A DNA stretch of 33,894 bases from Nanobdellota archaeon (GTDB lineage: Archaea; Nanobdellota; Nanobdellia; Woesearchaeales; JACPBV01), in contig JAQBWB010000003.1 in NCBI GenBank assembly GCA_027623355.1, forward strand, positions 1-33,894. The letters are read 5' to 3'. The position numbers and the translations under genes were made by a program. The number at the start of each line of letters is the position of its first letter. Positions within the stretch are counted from its first letter, which is position 1. Under the pieces are notes generated by a model. It made no database searches. It had not been told where the DNA came from and was given only the letters and a program-made list of their open reading frames with translations. Below, in pieces: positions 11,513 to 26,295 of the stretch.

Positions 11513-12190
11513 TTTCTTTTGTATTATAGGATATATTAGTTCTTCCCATTTTGCATATGCCTCTGCAGAGGGATGGAGGCCATCATTTGCTACCATTTCT
11601 GGTTTCTTGTTGAGCTCTTGACTAAGCTCGAAGAGATGTATTACCGATAGATTTCTTTCTTTGGCTTGCTTAGTTATAATTTCATTGAATCGTCTTAGTT
11701 CTTGGGCTATATTTTTAGGATCTCCAAAGTATTTTGCGGCAGGTAGTTGCGAAAAGTCAGGGATTGTTACGATCACTAGGTTTTGATTTACTTCCTTTTG
11801 TATTTCATCTAGAAGTAATTGAAATTGCTGGTTGAAGGTAGTTTCATCAACACCTTGAACGTAATCATTTACTCCGATAAGGAGTGTTGCGAAGTCTGCA
11901 TTTGCTTCTTTTAGTAGGGGGATTTCTTTATCGAGTGCATCTTGCGTTGTCCAGCCCGTTACGGAAGGATTAGCTACTAGTTCTATCTTGATGTTTTCTT
12001 GTTGAAGATGTTTTGTTAGAAGTGATGGCCATGATTCTTGTTGTGAAGCTCCTTCACCGATGCTATAGGAGTCTCCTATTGCTACATATCGGATGGTGTT
12101 TGGATCTGTTGGTTCCATGATGTTTTTTTGACTGCAGGCAGTTAGTAGTAAAAGTATAATCGTTAGGAGGATTTTCTTTTTCATCTGCAT
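11504..12190 (-). CDS. SGNH/GDSL hydrolase lipoprotein
   Basis: 228-aa esterase-type hydrolase predicted to be secreted and lipid-anchored. The N-terminus is a lipoprotein signal, three Lys then LLTIILLLLTAC, with lipobox Cys19. The SGNH blocks are visible: block I VAIGDSYSIGEGAS (nucleophile Ser), block III LIGVNDYV (Asn of the oxyanion hole) and block V NDGLHPSAEAY (Asp and His of the triad). Substrates of such enzymes include acyl esters, lysophospholipids and acetylated sugars; none can be chosen here. The ATG overlaps the ABCE1 stop by one base (TAATG); a second ATG two codons on is equally possible. Coupling to ABCE1 is probably only genomic packing. Confidence 0.87.
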   Translation of the reverse strand: MQMKKKILLTIILLLLTACSQKNIMEPTDPNTIRYVAIGDSYSIGEGASQQESWPSLLTKHLQQENIKIELVANPSVTGWTTQDALDKEIPLLKEANADFATLLIGVNDYVQGVDETTFNQQFQLLLDEIQKEVNQNLVIVTIPDFSQLPAAKYFGDPKNIAQELRRFNEIITKQAKERNLSVIHLFELSQELNKKPEMVANDGLHPSAEAYAKWEELIYPIIQKKLL

Positions 12191-13953
12191 TAATTATAAT
12201 AATACTTTCCAGCATCTTTTTGCTTGCGATCCATAACGGAATCTAATTTGTTGATTCTTGGTCTTCCTGATTGGTCGTCTCTTCTTAGGGTGATTTGGAC
12301 TTCTTTTAGGAGTAGATTCATTCCTTCTTCCATGCTCATGGGACCTATTTGTTTTCCTTCTCTTGCAGGCTGTCCTTCGAAGACGATTAATCTATTTGCT
12401 ACGTAATCTAGAAAGACAAGATCGTGGTCAACTATTAGAATTGCTTTTCCGGTTGTGTCGGCTACATTTCTGATGATTTTTGAGATTTTTAGACGCTGTT
12501 CGGTATCTAGGTATGCTGAGGGTTCGTCTAAAAGAATAATGTCTGCTTTCTTTCCTAGGGCTTCTGCAACGGCTACTCTTTGGAGTTCTCCTCCGGAAAG
12601 TTGTTTGAGTTGGCGAGTGAAGAGGTCTTTTAGATTGAGTGGATCGATGATGTCGTTAGTATGATACTGGATTGTTTGCTTTAGGACATTCATTACTAGC
12701 TCTTCTGAATCTGATGCTAGATTTTGGGGTTTATAGGAAATGGTTGCTGTTGTTTCTAATTTTCCAGTATCGGGAGTTTCTACTCCTGCTAGTAGTTTCA
12801 TGAAGGTGGTTTTTCCGATTCCGTTTGGCCCTAGAATCCCGATTACCTCTTGGTTGTGGATATTACCTGCATTTGACTTTAGAGTGAAGTTTCCTAATTT
12901 CTTTTCCATAGCAGGCCATTCGAAGCGCACATCCTTCTTTTTTTCCTTATCTGATGAGCGCACTTCGAACTTGATCTTATGATCGCGGAATCGGACGTTA
13001 TCGTCTTTGAGATAGCCCTCTAGATAGGCATTCATTCCTGTTTTTGCAGGTTTTAATTGCGAAACGATGCCATAGACCTTTTCTTTTCCATACATTATGT
13101 TTACGAGATCGGCCATATAGTCCATTACGATGAGATCGTGCTCGATTACTAGAACTGAGGTGTCTTCATCAGCTAAGTCGCGAATGAATCTTGCTATTTT
13201 TAGTCGTTGTTTGATATCTAGAAAGGAGCTTGGTTCGTCAAAGATGTAGAGATTTGCTTTTTTGAGAACGGTTGCAGCGATTGCGACACGTTGCATCTCT
13301 CCACCCGAGATTTTGTTGATATCGTTATCTAGAATGTTATCGAGTTCTAGAATTTCTATGACTTCCTTTAGTTTTTTGGTTTCATTTACTTTATCTAGTA
13401 ATTCTTTTACTTTTCCTTTAGCATTTTTTTGAATTAATTCTACTTCTTGAGGTTTGTAGCTTACAATAATTTCTTTTTTCTTGAATTTCTCCATAAAGAT
13501 CTGCATCTCTGTGCCTTTGAAGAGTTTGATTAATTCGTCAATGTCACTTTCTTCTTTTTCAGCATCTCCTAAATTAGGTTTAATTGAGGATGCTAGAATT
13601 TTGATGGCGGTAGATTTTCCGATTCCGTTTACTCCGATGATTCCAACAACTTTACCGAAGGTGGGTGTAGGAAGTGAATAGAGAATGAACTGATCTTTTC
13701 CGTATCGATGAATGGGGCGTGTTGTGAGGTGATCAGGTAGTTTGACCATATGAATTGCATTGAAGGGACAGACGTTTACAACTACTTGGAGTGTATCGTT
13801 TGCTAAGTCTTCATTTATTTGTGCCTTTCCGTCTGGACCTTTGACTATTGCTTCTATGCCCATGCGGTTTAGTGGGCTTTTCTTTATACAGAGATAACCA
13901 CCACATCCTTCTGGATTGCAGCGGTCCTTTTCTACAACAGCAATTCGTTTCAT
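12190..13953 (-). CDS. ABCE1/Rli1 ribosome-recycling ATPase with degenerate Fe-S domain
   Basis: Twin-ATPase that splits ribosomes after termination. The 587-aa protein has two complete nucleotide-binding domains. NBD1: GIIGVNGIGKST, KISGGEMQRVAIAA, YIFDEPSSFLD, VIEHD. NBD2: GILGPNGIGKTT, QLSGGELQRVAVAE, ILLDEPSAYLD, IVDHD. Hinge motifs and length are normal. The N-terminal domain should carry eight Cys for two [4Fe-4S] clusters. Here cluster-I positions are C12, C17, C22 and Ser26 (normally Cys-Pro) with an extra residue between the second and third. The cluster-II stretch EDLANDTLQVVVNVCPF keeps only C62, with Ala51, Thr54 and Val57 where Cys is expected. The fold seems to remain (RMGIEAI, CPFNAIHMV). 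A TATA box lies 30 nt upstream. Confidence 0.93.
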   Translation of the reverse strand: MKRIAVVEKDRCNPEGCGGYLCIKKSPLNRMGIEAIVKGPDGKAQINEDLANDTLQVVVNVCPFNAIHMVKLPDHLTTRPIHRYGKDQFILYSLPTPTFGKVVGIIGVNGIGKSTAIKILASSIKPNLGDAEKEESDIDELIKLFKGTEMQIFMEKFKKKEIIVSYKPQEVELIQKNAKGKVKELLDKVNETKKLKEVIEILELDNILDNDINKISGGEMQRVAIAATVLKKANLYIFDEPSSFLDIKQRLKIARFIRDLADEDTSVLVIEHDLIVMDYMADLVNIMYGKEKVYGIVSQLKPAKTGMNAYLEGYLKDDNVRFRDHKIKFEVRSSDKEKKKDVRFEWPAMEKKLGNFTLKSNAGNIHNQEVIGILGPNGIGKTTFMKLLAGVETPDTGKLETTATISYKPQNLASDSEELVMNVLKQTIQYHTNDIIDPLNLKDLFTRQLKQLSGGELQRVAVAEALGKKADIILLDEPSAYLDTEQRLKISKIIRNVADTTGKAILIVDHDLVFLDYVANRLIVFEGQPAREGKQIGPMSMEEGMNLLLKEVQITLRRDDQSGRPRINKLDSVMDRKQKDAGKYYYN

Positions 13954-17986: not shown

Positions 17987-18305
17987 ATGGATCAGAGAAG
18001 AGTTGACCATTATTTCTATATGCTTCCTAGAGTCATGCATAAGCGAGTTACACTGATTAATCGCGCCATTAAGAAAAAGCACCGTATCGATAAAGTGGTT
18101 GCTCGGCGAGGAGTCAATAATCGTAGGAAGAAAAAGCTCTTTTTTAACTGCAGTGTATAGCTTACTCTCTGTTCTTCTTAAAACTGGTGCAGTGGCAGGA
18201 GGTATCACTGTTGGAGTATCTTCTCTCACCTATTGGGTTGTAAGAAGTTCACAATATCTTATCGACAGTCTTAGAAAAAATTTTGAATACTATTTTAGTC
18301 TTTGA
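17987..18305 (+). pseudogene. Small membrane-protein gene, apparently frameshifted
   Basis: From ATG 17987, which has a TATA box 30 nt upstream, an ORF of 57 codons ends at 18160. It is very basic (VMHKRVTLINRAIKKKHR, RRKKKLFF) and soluble-looking. The +1 frame stays open to the TGA at 18303-18305 and encodes a hydrophobic stretch (FLTAVYSLLSVLLKTGAVAG, then GITVGVSSLTYWVV) and a short tail. The two parts join into one protein of about 107 aa if one T is removed from the T6 run at about 18140-18145. This suggests a single-base indel (assembly error or mutation) or programmed +1 slippage. No family is recognised. The end overlaps convergent trpS by 11 bp. Confidence 0.45.
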
Positions 18306-19413
18306 GAATAAACTTGTCTATGTGCTTTCTTGCGAGCTCTCGTTTCTTTTGGTGCACTTTTAGGAAAGCATTTACTTTTTCGATGAGGATTGCTTTTAAT
18401 TCTCCACTTAATAATTTTCCAGACTTGTAGTTGTCGCGTATACTCTTTAGTTTTTTGTCATCCTCTTCGAAGAAGGTTAACCATTGGTAGGCTGCATCGA
18501 TTGCAGGATTGCCACCATGCTTTCGATGTTCTTCTAAGGTGTCTTTTCCTCCAGAGAAGGCGTACTTGTTGATTTTCTTTTTTACTTCATCGGGAGTGTC
18601 GGTTGTGAAGATAGTAGCGTGGCTTCCTTCTGAGGTCGACATTTTTCCTTCTGGCCCTAATAGAGATGGAAGGAAGGTGCAGTGAATTGCAGCGGTTTTA
18701 GGGTAGCCTAACTTAGGTGCTACGTCTCTTGCAATGCGCCAATAGGGATCTTGATCGATGGCTGCAGGTATTAGGGTTCTTGTTGGTTTTTTCTGGTGTA
18801 CTGTAGGCAGGAAGCAGGTCGCTGATTGCATGGCTGGCCAGAAGTACATTCCAATGTTTGTGGAATTATCAAATCCGAATACGGCTTGAGCACTGGATGC
18901 TGTTACTTTTTTTGCTACTTTTATTGCAATCTTATACATTGTTTTTGCGTAATCAGTATCTACAAAAATAAATGTTTTTTTAGGATCGAAACCCATGGCA
19001 ATGAAATCGAGTGCATTCTCATAAGCTAGTTTATTTGTTTCTTCTAGAGTAAGATCTTTACAGAGAAACTTTTCATCGTCTGTGATTTGGAAGTACAGGG
19101 GGATATCTAATGCATCCTGAAGATATTTGCAAAAGATCCAGGGTACGATATGGCCGAGATGGGTGTTTCCTGAGGGACCGCGTCCAGTGTATAATGCTAC
19201 ACTTTTCCCTTCTTCGTGCTCTTTAAGGAAGATTTCTAGGTCTCGGTGCGAGAAAAAGATTTTTCTTCTAAGCATGTGGTGCGATTTCTTTGCAGCTTTC
19301 TCAATTTTTTTAATTAGTGGCTCTGTAAGATGATTGGTACCGAACTCTTCGATTAGGCGTTCGTAATCAACTACGCCTTTTACTTCCCATGGAGTTACTT
19401 TTGCTTTAGACAT
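18295..19413 (-). CDS. trpS: Tryptophanyl-tRNA synthetase
   Basis: Class Ic aminoacyl-tRNA synthetase of the archaeal/eukaryal type, 372 aa; joins Trp to tRNA-Trp. N-terminal TPWEVKGVVDYERLIEEFG is typical of this type. The HIGH-like motif is RGPSGNTHLGH, the KMSKS loop is GKMSTSEGS, and the Trp/ATP pocket includes AAIDQDPYWRIARD and QITDDEKF. No editing domain, as expected. It is the last gene of the tryptophan operon and overlaps trpA by eight bases, so the enzyme that consumes Trp for translation is expressed with the enzymes that make it. An additional C-terminal basic tail (HQKKRELARKH) is ordinary. Confidence 0.95.
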   Translation of the reverse strand: MSKAKVTPWEVKGVVDYERLIEEFGTNHLTEPLIKKIEKAAKKSHHMLRRKIFFSHRDLEIFLKEHEEGKSVALYTGRGPSGNTHLGHIVPWIFCKYLQDALDIPLYFQITDDEKFLCKDLTLEETNKLAYENALDFIAMGFDPKKTFIFVDTDYAKTMYKIAIKVAKKVTASSAQAVFGFDNSTNIGMYFWPAMQSATCFLPTVHQKKPTRTLIPAAIDQDPYWRIARDVAPKLGYPKTAAIHCTFLPSLLGPEGKMSTSEGSHATIFTTDTPDEVKKKINKYAFSGGKDTLEEHRKHGGNPAIDAAYQWLTFFEEDDKKLKSIRDNYKSGKLLSGELKAILIEKVNAFLKVHQKKRELARKHIDKFILKD

Positions 19414-20209
19414 ATCGTGTGGCTTCCTTTAATTCTTTTACAAAGGCTACTGAAAGTTGTATGAGGTCTTCTTTCTTATTAAGGTTTTGTTCTATGATCT
19501 TAATGAGGGCGGAACCTACAATGATTCCATCGGCTCCTGCTTCTGCTACTTTTCTAACCTGTTCTTTGTTTGAGATGCCGAATCCTACGCAGATGGGTTT
19601 TCTGAGGAGTGGTTTAATTTCTTTTAGGTGTTTTAGACTGCGTTCTTTGAGGTCTTCTTTTGCTCCGGTAACGCCTAGTCTTGCGACGTAATAGATGAAT
19701 CCCGTTGTTTTGTTTTCTATTTTTTGCAGGCGTTCTTTATTGGTTAGTGGACTTACCATGAAGATTAGCTGTATTTTGTATTTTCTTGCTTTGATTTCGA
19801 ATTCATTGGATTCTTCTGGAGGGACATCTGCTATTAGCACAGAATCTACTTTTGCTTGTTGAGCTAATCTAAAGAATTTTCCTATTCCTTGTTGATAGAC
19901 TAAATTTGCGTAGACTAGGAGGTTGATTGGGATATCGGTTTCTTTTCTTAGCTCTTTTATCAGCTCAAAGTTCTTTTCTGTTGTCATTCCCGCTTTTAAT
20001 GCACGCTGATCTGCAGCTTGGACTGTTTTTCCGTCTGCAATTGGATCGGAAAAGGCGAATCCTAGTTCTAACATGTCTGCTTCTTTTGCTATTGCAGTTA
20101 GCAATTCTAGAGATGTTTTGTAATCGGGATCGCCTAGTACTAGGAAGGGTATAAGAGCTCGTTCCACATTGTCTTCTAATGCCTTGAATTTGGTTAGGAG
20201 TGGGTTCAT
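19406..20209 (-). CDS. trpA: Tryptophan synthase alpha chain
   Basis: Cleaves indole-3-glycerol phosphate to indole and glyceraldehyde-3-P; partner of TrpB. TIM barrel of 267 aa with [20 protein letters not shown], containing the catalytic Glu and Asp (E49/D60 in the enteric enzyme), [11 protein letters not shown] of loop 6, and the phosphate loops [13 protein letters not shown] and [24 protein letters not shown] follows. Length is normal. Its ATG overlaps the trpB stop by four bases, and its own end overlaps trpS by eight. The TM-free, compact sequence gives no sign of decay. Confidence 0.96.
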
Positions 20210-21390
20210 TCTATTTTTACTCCTAATTCTTTCGATGCTATCTCTAAGTCTTTGTCGCCACGTCCTGAAAGATTGATCAGGACAACTTGGTCTTTGAATT
20301 CGGCGTGATGTTTAATGAGATAGCCTACTGCATGGGCTGATTCTAGAGCGGGGATGATTCCTTCTTGTTTACTTAGTTCTTCGAATCCTTTCAGACAATC
20401 GGTATCGGTTGCGAAGTCGTACTCTGCTCGCTTCTTTTTTCTTAGGTAGGCATGTTCTGGTCCGACTGCACTGTAATCTAGACCTGCCGATACGGAATGA
20501 GTGTTGTCAATTTGACCATCGGGATCTTGCAGCACAAATGTTTTTGATCCATGGATGATGCCTAGACGTCCTGCTACTGGATCTGCGAAACGTGCTGCAT
20601 GGTGATGTCGTTTGATGCCGCGACCTCCTGCTTCTACCCCTATCAATCGTACTTTTTTATCTCGAATGAATCCTTTGAAGATTCCGATTGCGTTTGATCC
20701 ACCGCCCACACACGCAATGACTGCATCGGGTAGTGATCCTTGCATTTTGAGTATCTGTTTCTTTGCTTCTTTTCCGATGACGGTTTGGAAATAGGCTACC
20801 ATTTCGGGATAGGGGTGTGGTCCTAGAGCTGAACCTAAGAGATAGTGAGTTGTTTCTACTGAACCTGCCCAATCTCTTAGTGCTTCATTAATAGCATCTT
20901 TTAGGGTTTTAGAGCCGGAATCTACCGGGTGTATTTTTGCTCCTAGTAATTTCATCCTAAAGACATTTTGTTTTTGACGTTCGATGTCGACAGTTCCCAT
21001 ATAAATTGTGCAATCCATTCCGAGAAAGGCAGCTGCGGTTGCGGTTGCGACGCCATGCTGTCCTGCTCCGGTTTCTGCGATGATTCTTTTCTTGCCCATG
21101 CGCTTTGCTAGGAGTGCTTGGCCGATAGCGTTGTTTATTTTATGGGCTCCGGTATGGGCTAGGTCTTCACGTTTGAGATAAATTTTGCAGCCTAGTTGCT
21201 CTGAAAGATTTTTGCAGAAGGTTATGGGGGTGGGGCGTCCTACGAACTCCTTTAGAATTTTTTCGAGTTCTTGTTTGAAGTTGCCATCTTGCTGTGCAGA
21301 GATAAAGACTTGTTCGAGTTGTTGCACTGCAGGTATTAACGTTTCAGGCATAAAAATGCCGCCGAATTCCCCAAAATACCCCTTTTTCAT
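20206..21390 (-). CDS. trpB: Tryptophan synthase beta chain
   Basis: PLP enzyme that condenses indole with serine to give tryptophan. 394 aa, the TrpB1 length, beginning [20 protein letters not shown]. The PLP lysine is in [13 protein letters not shown], the catalytic Glu in [13 protein letters not shown], the phosphate loop is [10 protein letters not shown], and the C-terminal part has [14 protein letters not shown]. The COMM/alpha-interface region ([18 protein letters not shown]) is present, as expected for a TrpA-dependent form, not the longer TrpB2. It lies just after a small membrane-protein gene in the operon (stop TAA immediately precedes its ATG). Confidence 0.97.
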
Positions 21391-21720
21391 TTAGTCTGTA
21401 AATATTTGAAAGATCAATAATCCTACTGCAGCTATCATGACCCACCTATATGCTAGGAAGATGAACCCTACAAAGGGCAATGAGACTCCTACTAGCGAAA
21501 GGATTGCGAGTAGTGCATAGATTCCCACCAGGAAGCAGGTAACAAGGTATGCTTTTCCTATGGTTCCTCCTTTTGAAATTCCGATCATCAATAATACAGT
21601 AGCTCCGAAAATTGCTAGGGTATCGATGATGCTTGGAAGTTGAAAAAGAGAGATTATGTTATTGAGCAGTATTAATGTAACCAATAGTGATGATAATTTT
21701 TTAATTTCCATGTTTTGCAC
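21391..21720 (-). CDS. Small membrane protein inside the trp operon
   Basis: 109 aa with three or four membrane segments: about 8-28, 31-49, 56-81 and 83-106 (SLLVTLILLNNIISLF, IIDTLAIFGATVLLMIGI, KAYLVTCFLVGIYALLAILS, GFIFLAYRWVMIAAVGLLIF). No motif or family is recognised and no signal peptide is needed. The start overlaps the end of trpF by 20 bases (an internal ATG at 21711 is also possible), and the stop touches the trpB start, so it must be cotranscribed and probably translationally coupled. A role in moving indole, anthranilate or tryptophan across the membrane is conceivable from context only. Confidence 0.7.
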   Translation of the reverse strand: MQNMEIKKLSSLLVTLILLNNIISLFQLPSIIDTLAIFGATVLLMIGISKGGTIGKAYLVTCFLVGIYALLAILSLVGVSLPFVGFIFLAYRWVMIAAVGLLIFQIFTD

Positions 21721-22345
21721 CCATTATGAATTGTTCCATTTTTTTGTGGTCTTTTCTTTTTGCAGTTGCTTTTACACCACTATTCACATCCACTGCGTAC
21801 GGATTCACTGTTTTTATAGCTTGCGCTACATTTTCAGGATTTAGTCCTCCTGCGAGGAAGACTGGGATGTTTACTTGTTTTACAATTTCTGCGCTTAATG
21901 ACCAATCGTGGGTTTTTCCGGTTCCCCCCCTGCGCTCTCCTACTTTGGTGTCTAGTAAAAGATAATCTACGTACTGTTCGAACTTTTTTGCCTCTTTTAT
22001 CGAGGATTCGTCGGTCACCGAAATTGTTTTGGTCAGTTTTATTTTTGGAAGTGCCTGCCGAATTTTTCCTATTTCATCAAGTGTAATTTCATTATGGAGT
22101 TGGATGATTTGAGGTTTAATATGGTCTGCAAGATGGATGAGAGGGGTTGCGTGTTGGAGATAGGTTACGAGGACTGGTTGTATTTCGAGTGGGAGCTTTT
22201 GGATGAGTGTTTTTGCTTCTTCTCTTGTAATACTCTCTTCTGAGAACTTTACCTCTACAATGAAACCGAGAAAGTTTGCCCCTAGGACTGCTGCCTGTAA
22301 AGCATCATCTGAATTTGCAATTCCGCAGATTTTTACTTTAGTCAT
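21701..22345 (-). CDS. trpF: Phosphoribosylanthranilate isomerase
   Basis: Amadori isomerisation of phosphoribosylanthranilate to CdRP, third step from chorismate. TIM barrel of 214 aa with the catalytic Cys in VKICGI, the catalytic Asp in LLLDTKVG, RRGGTGKTHDWSL for the first phosphate contact, and LAGGLNPENVAQAI and AVDVNSGVK for the second. These motifs are all intact. It starts eight bases inside the 3' end of trpC and its own 3' end overlaps the membrane-protein gene. It is a separate gene, not a TrpCF fusion. Confidence 0.96.
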   Translation of the reverse strand: MTKVKICGIANSDDALQAAVLGANFLGFIVEVKFSEESITREEAKTLIQKLPLEIQPVLVTYLQHATPLIHLADHIKPQIIQLHNEITLDEIGKIRQALPKIKLTKTISVTDESSIKEAKKFEQYVDYLLLDTKVGERRGGTGKTHDWSLSAEIVKQVNIPVFLAGGLNPENVAQAIKTVNPYAVDVNSGVKATAKRKDHKKMEQFIMGAKHGN

Positions 22346-23087
22346 TTGTAAGGCGGTCTAGTTTATTTTGGATGTCTTTTGCTTGTAATAGCGATGTTCC
22401 GATGAGGAAAGCATCTGCTGTAGCGTTTGTGATGTCTTGATTTGAATGGTATCCTGATTCTGCTACAATTATTTTTTCTGGGGGTATTAGTTTTGCTAGT
22501 TTGTTGACTTTTTCTAGATCTATTTTTAGTGTGTCCAGGTTACGGTTGTTGATGCCTATAATTTCTGCATCGGTTTCTAGGACTAGTTCAAGTTCTTTTT
22601 TGGTGTGGACTTCGACAAGTGAATCCATTCCTAATTCCTTTGCTTTTTTTATGAATCGATTGAGTTTTGTTTTTTGTAGGATGGATGCAATTAAAAGGAT
22701 AGCATCTGCCCCATAGTGTCTGCTTTCAAGGATTTGGTATTCGTCGATGATGAACTCTTTTCTTAGAAGGGGTTTGTCGGTGACTTTCGCAACTTGTTGT
22801 AGTGATTCTTGTGACATACCAAAGAATTTTTGGTCGGTTAATACAGAGATTGCTTTTACTTTTGGATGCTGATCGTAGATTTTAATTACGTCTGGTAGTG
22901 AGTGGTTATTGAGCATGCCTGTTGAGGGTGACTTTTTTTTTATTTCTGCGATGATGTTGATTCCTTTTTGAGAGATAGCTTTCTTGAAGTTTTTGGTGCT
23001 GGGTTTTAAGATATGTTCTATTGGAAACTGCTTTTTTCTCTGTTCAACTTCCTTTTTTTTATGTTCTACAATTTGGTCTAGTATCAT
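22338..23087 (-). CDS. trpC: Indole-3-glycerol-phosphate synthase
   Basis: Closes the indole ring, CdRP to indole-3-glycerol phosphate, with loss of CO2. 249-aa TIM barrel. Typical blocks: NIIAEIKKKSPSTG (catalytic Glu and Lys), AISVLTDQKFFGMS, PLLRKEFIIDEYQI (general-acid Lys), GADAILLIASIL, IIGINNRNLDTLKID, IIVAESGYHS and AFLIGTSLLQA for phosphate binding. The N-terminal helix that precedes the barrel is present (ILDQIVEHKKKEVEQRKK). It is separated from trpD by 21 bp, the largest gap inside this operon. Confidence 0.96.
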   Translation of the reverse strand: MILDQIVEHKKKEVEQRKKQFPIEHILKPSTKNFKKAISQKGINIIAEIKKKSPSTGMLNNHSLPDVIKIYDQHPKVKAISVLTDQKFFGMSQESLQQVAKVTDKPLLRKEFIIDEYQILESRHYGADAILLIASILQKTKLNRFIKKAKELGMDSLVEVHTKKELELVLETDAEIIGINNRNLDTLKIDLEKVNKLAKLIPPEKIIVAESGYHSNQDITNATADAFLIGTSLLQAKDIQNKLDRLTND

Positions 23088-23108
23088 CTTTTACATCCTA
23101 TGATTATA

Positions 23109-24119
23109 CTACTGGTTTGTCCACGCTTTGAGCTTATTAAGCTTTTCTAGAGCGCTTTTGGAGTTAATAGAATTTTTTGCTTTTTCGATTCCCTCTTTTA
23201 TTGAGGAGGCATATCCAGTACAATAGATTGCTGCTCCTGCATTAAGCAGAACGATGTCTCGTTTTGGTCCTGTTTCTGTTCCATCAAGAACATGAGTGAT
23301 GATTTTTGCATTTTCTTTTGCATCTGCACCTTGTAATTCTTCTAATGAAGCCGGTTGAAATCCTACGTCTTCGGGCGTTATGGTGGATAGGGATACTGCC
23401 CCGTTATTGAGTTCGGCGATTGTTGATTCTCCAGTAAGGGTAAGTTCATCCATGCCGTTGCCATGTACTACTAATGCGCGTTTACACCCTAATTTGTTAA
23501 GGACATGTGCTAGTGGTTCTACTAAAGATACATCGTAAACTCCCATTAACTCATACTGGGCTGATGCGGGATTGGTTAATGGTCCTAGGATATTGAAGAT
23601 GGTTCTGGTTAAAATTTTTTTTCTTGCAGCAATTGCGTATTTCATTGCTGGATGGAATTTTGGAGCGAACATGAACCCCATTCCTACTTCGCTGATGCAT
23701 CGTTCTACCTGTTTCGGTTCTAAATTAATGTTAATTCCAAGAGCGGTTAGCACATCTGCTGCTCCTGCTTTTGATGAGACTGCTTTGTTTCCATGTTTTG
23801 CTATGGGAATATCGCAACCTGCTACCACAAATGCGGAGGCGGTAGAGATGTTGAATGTATTTGTTTTATCGCCACCTGTACCTACGATGTCTAGAAGCAT
23901 TTCTTGTTTAGGGTGTATTTTGGCTGCTTTTTTACGCATGATGGTTGCACAGGCTGTAATTTCTTCTATTGTTTCTCCCTTTTCTTTTAATGCTATAAGA
24001 AAATCAACGATATTGTCATCGGAAACGTTACCGGACATAATTTCATTCATGGCGGATTCTGCTTGCTTTGGAGAAAGATCTTGCTTTTGTTTTAGCTGGG
24101 CAATTATCTCAGAAATCAT
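23109..24119 (-). CDS. trpD: Anthranilate phosphoribosyltransferase
   Basis: Transfers phosphoribose from PRPP to anthranilate. 336 aa, with an N-terminal helical domain and the nucleoside-phosphorylase-like core. Signatures: DIVGTGGDKTNTFNISTAS (PRPP-binding loop), IAKHGNKAVSSKAGAADVL, FAPKFHPAMKYA, and NILGPLTNPA. Length and motifs are normal. Its ATG overlaps the trpG stop by four bases, so anthranilate synthesis and its next step are coupled. It is not fused to trpG, unlike in enteric bacteria. Confidence 0.97.
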   Translation of the reverse strand: MISEIIAQLKQKQDLSPKQAESAMNEIMSGNVSDDNIVDFLIALKEKGETIEEITACATIMRKKAAKIHPKQEMLLDIVGTGGDKTNTFNISTASAFVVAGCDIPIAKHGNKAVSSKAGAADVLTALGININLEPKQVERCISEVGMGFMFAPKFHPAMKYAIAARKKILTRTIFNILGPLTNPASAQYELMGVYDVSLVEPLAHVLNKLGCKRALVVHGNGMDELTLTGESTIAELNNGAVSLSTITPEDVGFQPASLEELQGADAKENAKIITHVLDGTETGPKRDIVLLNAGAAIYCTGYASSIKEGIEKAKNSINSKSALEKLNKLKAWTNQ

Positions 24120-24694
24120 TTTATCGAGTTAATTACGTTCTTGATTATTTCGGCGCCTACGGGCGTGAGAATAGATTCGGGATGGAATTGGACTCCTGTA
24201 ATGGGAAATTCTTTGTGGCGAACAGCCATTACTACATCTCGCTCAACTGATCTTGCTGTTACCTCAAGACAATAGGGGATGTCATATCCTACAAGCGAAT
24301 GATATCGTCCTGCTTGGAAGGGCGAGGGTATTCCAGCAAAGATTCCTTGATTATCATGTGAAATTTTTGATGATTTTCCGTGAATGGTTTCAACGGCCTT
24401 GTCGATACGTCCACCAAAACATTCAATGATTGCTTGATGGCCTAGACAGACTCCAAAAATAGGGATCGATTTGTGATAGGTGTTTATGATCTCTTTTGTG
24501 TTTCCTGCTTGCTTAGGTGTTCCGGGTCCGGGAGAGATGACTATGAGTTGAGGTTTTTCCTTCGTAATGTGCTCATTAATGATTTTCATATCAATGTTGT
24601 TTCTGAACACGGTAACAACGCACCCTTGTTTACGGAATTCATCAACAATATTATAGGTGAATGAGTCGAAGTTGTCGATAAAGAGTGCTTTCAC
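24116..24694 (-). CDS. trpG: Anthranilate synthase glutamine amidotransferase subunit
   Basis: Class I glutaminase that supplies ammonia to TrpE. From a GTG start at 24694 the protein has 192 aa and begins MKALFIDNFDSFTYNIVDEF, exactly where the family starts. A longer reading from ATG 24730 would add 12 residues in trpE-overlapping sequence and is less likely. The oxyanion/PGPG motif VISPGPGTP, nucleophile elbow FGVCLGHQAI (Cys) and FHPESI (His, Glu) are all visible. The GTG sits in a GTGA overlap with the trpE stop, consistent with stoichiometric translation of the two subunits. Confidence 0.95.
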   Translation of the reverse strand: MKALFIDNFDSFTYNIVDEFRKQGCVVTVFRNNIDMKIINEHITKEKPQLIVISPGPGTPKQAGNTKEIINTYHKSIPIFGVCLGHQAIIECFGGRIDKAVETIHGKSSKISHDNQGIFAGIPSPFQAGRYHSLVGYDIPYCLEVTARSVERDVVMAVRHKEFPITGVQFHPESILTPVGAEIIKNVINSIK

Positions 24695-26295
24695 TTTGCT
24701 GCCTCCGCTAGTTCTAGTGCCTGTAGGCATGCTTGCGCCTTTTTCTCTGTTTCCTGGAATTCTAATTCTGGCACAGAATCGAAGACGATACCTGCTCCTG
24801 CTCGAACATATGCTTTATTATTTCTAATATACATTGATCGGATTGTAATTGCAGTATCCATATCGCCGGCAGGTGTAATATATCCTACAGCCCCTCCATA
24901 AAATCCACGACTTTCTTTTTCATGTTGGCGTATGAGTTTCATTGCCTCCACCTTAGGTGCACCGGTTAGGGTTCCCATGTTCATTGTTGCAAGATACGCA
25001 TGTAATGCGTCAAGACCAACTTTCAGAGTTCCTTGTACATTTGAGACAAGATGTTGTACATGGGAATATTTTTCAATTACGAATGGCTCATTGCAGAATC
25101 TAGTTCCTGTAACTGAGACTCGTGCAATGTCATTTCTTGCAAGGTCAATAAGCATGGTGTGTTCAGCGATTTCTTTTTTGTCAGTTTTGAGTTCAACTTC
25201 ATATTTTGCATCGAGATCAGGGTCGATTGCATTCTCGGGTGTGAGTCCACGAGGTTTTGTACCTGCTATGGGCCTGATCTCTACAATTTTTTGTTCATTT
25301 CCTTGTACTCTGAGTGCCATTTCAGGAGATGCACCTAATAAAATGCCATCCTCTTGGTGGATATAGAACATATAGGGCGAAGGATTAATCGATTTGAGTT
25401 TTTCGTAGACCGCTAGGGGTTCGGCATTGGTGTTTTGGATGATTGTTCTTGAGGGAACTGCCTGAAAAATGTCTCCACGAAAGATTTTGTTTTTTATTTC
25501 AGAGACGATGTTTTCGTATTCTTTCGAGGTGGTGTCAGTTTCTGGTTCTGTAATTTTACCTTTTACCTTTTTTGGAATAATAAGTTTCTTTTCTAGTGTT
25601 TTTTCGTATTCGCTCATCGTTTTTTTAGCATTTTGGATAAGGGTTTTCTTATTTGCATCGGTAACTAGCACATTTACAATTATTTTAGTAACGCCTTTCT
25701 TATGATCGCTTAAGAATAAGTTGTCAAGATAATAGAACTCGTAGTCTGGTGTATCTAGAGTATTTTGTTGGTTCTTTGGAAGTTCTTCGAATTGATCGAT
25801 CATGTCGTAGCCGAATGCACCGAAAAGTCCACCGAAATGAGTACATGGTTTTTCTGGATGTTTGAATTTGAATGCGATTGTTCTTAGAATATCAAAATGA
25901 GTCTTTGCTTTTATTCGGTCATCTTCATTGCTTTCTTTTCTTTGTGGTTGTAAGGTCCCATAGAGGATGTTCTTTTTATGGACGAGTTTGTCAACAAACT
26001 TGAGGTCTTTTTTGATTGCTTTGATGAATTGTAGTCCGGTATCATTAAGTGCTTTAATTTCAAATTCTTCTTTGCGTCCAGATACTTTAAGGCATGGAGA
26101 TGCAGATCCTATGCTTTGCTCACCATATTTTGGGACAATATCGGCTGATTCGAAGAGAAGAGAATATTTCTTTTTTCCGTAATTGGATAGTTTTGCGAAG
26201 TATTCGGTAGCATCAAGGGGTTCTTCGATAGTTTTCACTAAAGAAACAATTTGGCCAATTTTTGCTTTTTCGACTTGTTCAACGAATTCTTCCAA
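24691..26295 (-). CDS. trpE: Anthranilate synthase component I
   Basis: Chorismate-using subunit, 534 aa, first enzyme of the pathway. The N-terminal half carries YSLLFESAD, corresponding to the LLES tryptophan-binding motif, so feedback inhibition is probably retained. The catalytic half has FQAVPSRT, SPEMALRV, RPIAGTKPRG, DLARNDIARVS, LTGAPKVEAM and YGGAVGYI. The start is TTG at 26295, preceded by GGTGG, with a TATA box at 26335-26328; this leaves a leader of only about 10 nt. No in-frame ATG or GTG is better placed. It is the first gene of an unbroken operon down to trpS. Confidence 0.94.
   Translation of the reverse strand: MEEFVEQVEKAKIGQIVSLVKTIEEPLDATEYFAKLSNYGKKKYSLLFESADIVPKYGEQSIGSASPCLKVSGRKEEFEIKALNDTGLQFIKAIKKDLKFVDKLVHKKNILYGTLQPQRKESNEDDRIKAKTHFDILRTIAFKFKHPEKPCTHFGGLFGAFGYDMIDQFEELPKNQQNTLDTPDYEFYYLDNLFLSDHKKGVTKIIVNVLVTDANKKTLIQNAKKTMSEYEKTLEKKLIIPKKVKGKITEPETDTTSKEYENIVSEIKNKIFRGDIFQAVPSRTIIQNTNAEPLAVYEKLKSINPSPYMFYIHQEDGILLGASPEMALRVQGNEQKIVEIRPIAGTKPRGLTPENAIDPDLDAKYEVELKTDKKEIAEHTMLIDLARNDIARVSVTGTRFCNEPFVIEKYSHVQHLVSNVQGTLKVGLDALHAYLATMNMGTLTGAPKVEAMKLIRQHEKESRGFYGGAVGYITPAGDMDTAITIRSMYIRNNKAYVRAGAGIVFDSVPELEFQETEKKAQACLQALELAEAAK

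Follow-up and report, generated by a model that had tools for sequence, protein, structure and literature searches.

Analysis of a 33,894-nucleotide stretch of contig JAQBWB010000003.1 from a Nanobdellota archaeon (the whole of it referred to as the window) revealed a gene for the ribosome-recycling ATPase ABCE1 (Rli1), which, judging from its sequence, very probably encodes a working protein with one [4Fe-4S] cluster in its N-terminal domain, not two. Almost all archaea and eukaryotes carry ABCE1, an essential protein whose need for two Fe-S clusters has still to be explained; natural one-cluster forms bear on this question.

The gene is the only ABCE1 in the window, with a reading frame intact throughout (Table 1). 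Pfam assigned two copies of ABC_tran to the protein, as well as Fer4_RLI (PF04068, the N-terminal RLI Fe-S domain), the latter at 23.1 bits, barely above the 23-bit cut-off. The top PDB matches were structures of P. abyssi ABCE1 (3j15/3bk7), which aligned end to end with a phmmer E value of about 2e-187, and an AlphaFold model of the protein superposed on 3bk7 with a TM of 0.94. The catalytic motifs are intact in NBD1 (GVNGIGKS at 107, SGGEMQR at 216, DEPS at 239 and EHDL at 271) as well as in NBD2 (GPNGIGKT at 375, SGGELQR at 453, DEPS at 476 and DHDL at 509). A reading made earlier from the sequence only had called the protein ABCE1 with both ATPase sites intact, and was borne out on both points. 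Thus the full-length homology, the two head-to-tail NBDs and the intact catalytic motifs that define ABCE1/RLI are all present, while of the eight Cys expected for two [4Fe-4S] clusters the cluster I set only was found; the protein was therefore classed as an ABCE1 variant and not as a standard member. It shares both NBDs, signature motifs, hinge, Fe-S fold and motif-1 spacing with canonical archaeal ABCE1/Rli1 (P. abyssi 3bk7/3j15 and S. solfataricus), but differs in having four of the eight ligands, no cluster II site, and a predicted helix in place of the loop of that site. The closest named relatives are MAGs labelled Woesearchaeota or Nanoarchaeota. The gene was single-copy in the genomes checked, and a second ABCE1, which in canonical form had been named as a possible objection, was not found in a search across the source genome (91 contigs totalling 1.07 Mb, with 80% completeness).

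Table 1. ABCE1 of the window and the features of its Fe-S domain
Feature	Position	Strand	Basis
Ribosome-recycling factor ABCE1 (Rli1), 587 aa, one copy	12190..13953	(-)	ORF, Pfam, PDB matches, model
Single-cluster Fe-S domain (kind A), residues 1-75	13729..13953	(-)	Alignments; model pLDDT 81-90 here
Retained putative cluster I ligands of motif 1: C12 (13918-13920), C17 (13903-13905), C22 (13888-13890)	13888..13920	(-)	Canonical spacing
S26, replacing the fourth Cys of motif 1 (cluster II ligand)	13876..13878	(-)	Alignments
Former cluster II loop: A51 (13801-13803), inserted D53, L55 (13789-13791) and V58 (13780-13782) for three Cys	13780..13803	(-)	Alignments, model
C62, last Cys of motif 2, retained as putative fourth cluster I ligand	13768..13770	(-)	Alignments

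Alignment to P. abyssi ABCE1 showed that the eight ligand positions read C12, C17, C22 and S26 in motif 1, and A51, L55, V58 and C62 in motif 2. Motif 1 has the canonical spacing (C-x4-C-x4-C-x3-S), and the spacing of motif 2 is changed by the single inserted residue D53, upstream. The sequence-only reading had correctly identified the four remaining Cys, the replacement by Ser26 and that by A51; its T54 and V57 are one residue off and should be L55 and V58, and of the altered spacing that it reported in both motifs only that of motif 2 held up. The second cluster is absent as it claimed, all cluster II ligands having disappeared; but its description of most ligands as lost is incomplete, since one cluster is cleanly lost and the other complete.

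The solved structure of a dicluster ferredoxin that shares the fold of the ABCE1 Fe-S domain shows cluster I bound by the first and third Cys of motif 1 (position 2 being Asp there) and the fourth of motif 2; cluster II is bound by the fourth Cys of motif 1 and the first three of motif 2 (PMC2946596). The partition used here was taken from that structure and from the reciprocal loss pattern among relatives, and the assignment of C25 and C61 of yeast Rli1 to different clusters (PMC4523923) is consistent with it. On this partition the window protein has the full cluster I set (positions 1, 2, 3 and 8) and has lost the cluster II set (positions 4, 5, 6 and 7), so that the two cross-motif sets of a bacterial-type 2[4Fe-4S] ferredoxin are not both present. 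Since the survivors are the exact ligand set of one cubane, the protein is to be read as a one-cluster ABCE1 and not as a decayed one; random loss of four of eight ligands would yield such a set with a chance of 2/70 per event. C12, C17, C22 and C62 are predicted with high confidence to bind cluster I, in an ABCE1-specific C-x4-C-x4-C site closed by the last Cys of motif 2, and we infer that the site is occupied by a real [4Fe-4S] cluster.

Alignment with the ABCE1 of relatives, structural modelling of the N-terminal domain and a search for SUF/ISC genes had all been proposed as checks. The first revealed that cluster II loss recurs among relatives, in which the reverse loss, of cluster I with retention of cluster II, is no less common. 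Across the archaeal class of the window, the Fe-S domain was compared in 168 ABCE1 sequences, with P. abyssi included as reference, and each was assigned to kind K (both clusters), kind A (cluster II lost, cluster I intact) or kind B (cluster I lost, cluster II intact). There were 64 K, 46 A (window included), 50 B, seven intermediates and one sequence with no readable domain, counts that reflect searches directed at kinds A and B. A set composed mostly of one relative per family gave 53 readable domains, with 41 K, three A, seven B and two intermediates. Loss of both clusters was found in none of the readable Fe-S domains of the 168 sequences.

After thinning by genus, C12, C17, C22 and C62 were conserved in 100% of kind A, and C26 and C55 in 0%, position 26 being S, D or N in every sequence. 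The opposite was seen in kind B, with C26, C55 and C58 at 100%, C52 at 97%, and C12, C17, C22 and C62 at 0%; in kind K, C62 is likewise 100% Cys. In some proteins of kind A a lone Cys persists at the first position of motif 2, which counts against a clean one-cluster reading. Kind A comprises several sequence types: that of the window's family f1, that of f38, that of f42/f21/f88/f66/f2, an NP type (f25, f55) and a DP type (other orders and f67). Intermediates with seven or eight Cys adjoin kind A in f1, f70 and f38; close to the window are G001, G004 and G237 with seven Cys, and f38 contains G281 with eight and G279, G282 and G283 with seven.

Two residues outside the ligand set also vary with kind. 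Cys35, a non-ligand (Ala in P. abyssi), tracks cluster II, being present in 89% of K, 100% of B and 8% of A. Residue 71 of the window protein (13741-13743) is Lys where Asn is usual: Asn was found in 97% of K and B, and Lys in 40% of kind A. By our own mapping, this position presumably corresponds to N70 of S. solfataricus, the cantilever-strand Asn that contacts rRNA h5 and hinge 1. Contacts of the Fe-S domain to rRNA differ in places, as at K71, which counts against the one-cluster reading of a working ABCE1. Two states were also found inside single genera, with kind B beside canonical ABCE1 in g41 (G270 and G273 are B, G040 is canonical) and likewise in g207 (G330 versus G327, G329, G331 and G332).

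For the structural comparison, AlphaFold models of the window ABCE1 and of one kind B protein were used, both free of metals. The model of the window protein predicts a helix (residues 53-61) where the motif-2 loop used to be and leaves the motif-1 loop open; in the kind B model, a helix (15-24) is predicted over the former motif 1 and the motif-2 loop is open. In both models, therefore, the loop of the lost cluster is predicted to lie in a helix.

The kinds are scattered over the ATPase-domain tree, which required 25-26 changes of kind, although this tree came from a short search under LG+G4 and its single branches are to be read with care. Its strongly supported branches alone force at least nine changes for A and at least eight for B. 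A single origin of kind B was rejected (AU test for one clade on the NBD tree, p about 2e-56). The kind B groups f15 and f55/g208 carry unrelated replacement sequences, and more than one independent loss is therefore very likely. By contrast, a tree of the N-terminal domain without the ligand segments (51 columns) grouped the kinds with six changes, and the difference suggests that exchange of the Fe-S domain from one gene to another may also have taken place. After a few original losses, the reduced domain could then have passed between lineages through exchange of the gene's 5' portion, in place of repeated loss, a history that is compatible with the one-cluster reading and to which we give a nearly even chance. 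In its favour, the Fe-S domains of G001 (L083) and G237 (L082) are 96% identical while their NBDs are 61% identical, and in genus g41 the kind B and canonical proteins have NBDs 78-80% identical. However, the N-terminal data amount to 51 columns, and the AU test did not reject a tree that keeps G270, G273 and G040 together (p 0.57). Third codon positions are saturated between G001 and G237 and thus give no hint of a recent exchange, and such an event is unsupported as the cause of their 96% identity. Moreover, certain losses plainly occurred separately: kind B of f15 and of f55/g208 carry their own sequences, and f1 and f38 their own intermediates.

The search for Fe-S assembly genes found SufB and SufD in the source genome. 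SUFBD was absent from about half of the 59 relatives searched, and SUF was present in 8/10 single-cluster genomes, more often than in the rest of the relatives set. Loss of Fe-S assembly as the cause of the reduced domain is thereby ruled out.

Cys4 sites are able to bind Zn, and the four remaining Cys might hold Zn or another metal, or a 3-Fe cluster, so that the domain would no longer be a [4Fe-4S] domain. The frequent absence of SUFBD among relatives fits this, but site spacing and neighbouring residues are unchanged from canonical ABCE1, the nearest relatives still have seven Cys, and SUF is present in this genome and, among the relatives, more often in single-cluster genomes than in the rest; we consider such a replacement improbable. 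Still less probable is that cluster II persists through non-Cys ligands, namely the Ser, Asp or Asn at position 26 together with others. Asp ligates a cluster in some archaeal ferredoxins (PMC2946596), and the constant S, D or N of kind A would suit this, but the window carries A, L and V at the other three positions, these positions are for the most part hydrophobic or variable in the remaining sequences, and the loop is predicted to be helical. An error of sequencing or of binning, or decay of the gene, is conceivable for a draft genome in 91 contigs, yet has next to no probability and is refuted for the pattern as a whole: the frame of 587 aa is intact, the retained Cys are invariant, relatives with seven- and eight-Cys intermediates exist, and the same state recurs in many independent MAGs, including the near-complete single-contig genome G364, which settles the concern about read errors raised earlier.

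When ATP drives closure of ABCE1, its Fe-S domain rotates and docks onto the small subunit close to uS12, h5 and h44 (PMC7196836). One cluster, with a helix in place of the other, would be enough to keep the domain rigid, and such a domain could still swing onto the small subunit and split ribosomes, as ABCE1 does with aRF1/Pelota. The clusters would then be structural staples and not redox centres, and either one may suffice where, as for these archaea, oxygen is low. Most Woesearchaeota are anaerobes (PMC5994134). Yeast Rli1 with C25S or C61S grows only without oxygen, and the double mutant is dead (PMC4523923), which fits the one-cluster reading, although single ligand changes may leave a damaged cluster and are not equivalent to deletion of the whole site. 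The window protein resembles these mutants in that one cluster is impaired, but they are laboratory single-residue changes, whereas here the whole site was lost naturally and the state is fixed. Against the one-cluster reading, the review literature states that both clusters are essential (PMC8153317).

We searched open-access papers that mention ABCE1 together with DPANN, or ribosome recycling together with Woesearchaeota, and found no report of a one-cluster ABCE1. Ferredoxins that lost one of two clusters are known, and share with the proteins described here a pseudo-twofold fold in which one site is lost while the other stays. Such ferredoxins are electron carriers, whereas the clusters of ABCE1 are described as structural and not redox-active (PMC8153317), and in ABCE1 the loss occurs in mirror image within one order. 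We tentatively propose, at somewhat less than an even chance for the whole account, that the two ABCE1 clusters are interchangeable staples, that this order has repeatedly and reciprocally deleted either one and put a helix instead, that the reduced domain has also moved between ABCE1 genes as a module, and that the one firm rule is retention of at least one cluster.

The existence in nature of one-cluster forms of either polarity, together with the intermediates, suggests that neither cluster by itself is strictly required. Kind A and kind B proteins are ready-made material for testing the role of each cluster in ribosome splitting, and for asking why yeast needs the two-cluster form when oxygen is present.

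In the same class, no ABCE1 match at E 1e-40 was found in G359, G371, G375, G379, G381, G385, G391, G392, G394, G398, G400, G401, G209 and G308. Many of these genomes are more than 90% complete (G209 100%, G308 98%), and matches were obtained for relatives from several of these families; ABCE1 may be lost or very divergent in the genomes listed. Elsewhere in the window, tryptophan biosynthesis genes and TrpRS are clustered on the (-) strand at 18295-26295 according to the ORFs, and seem to form a complete pathway although the archaeal genome is small.
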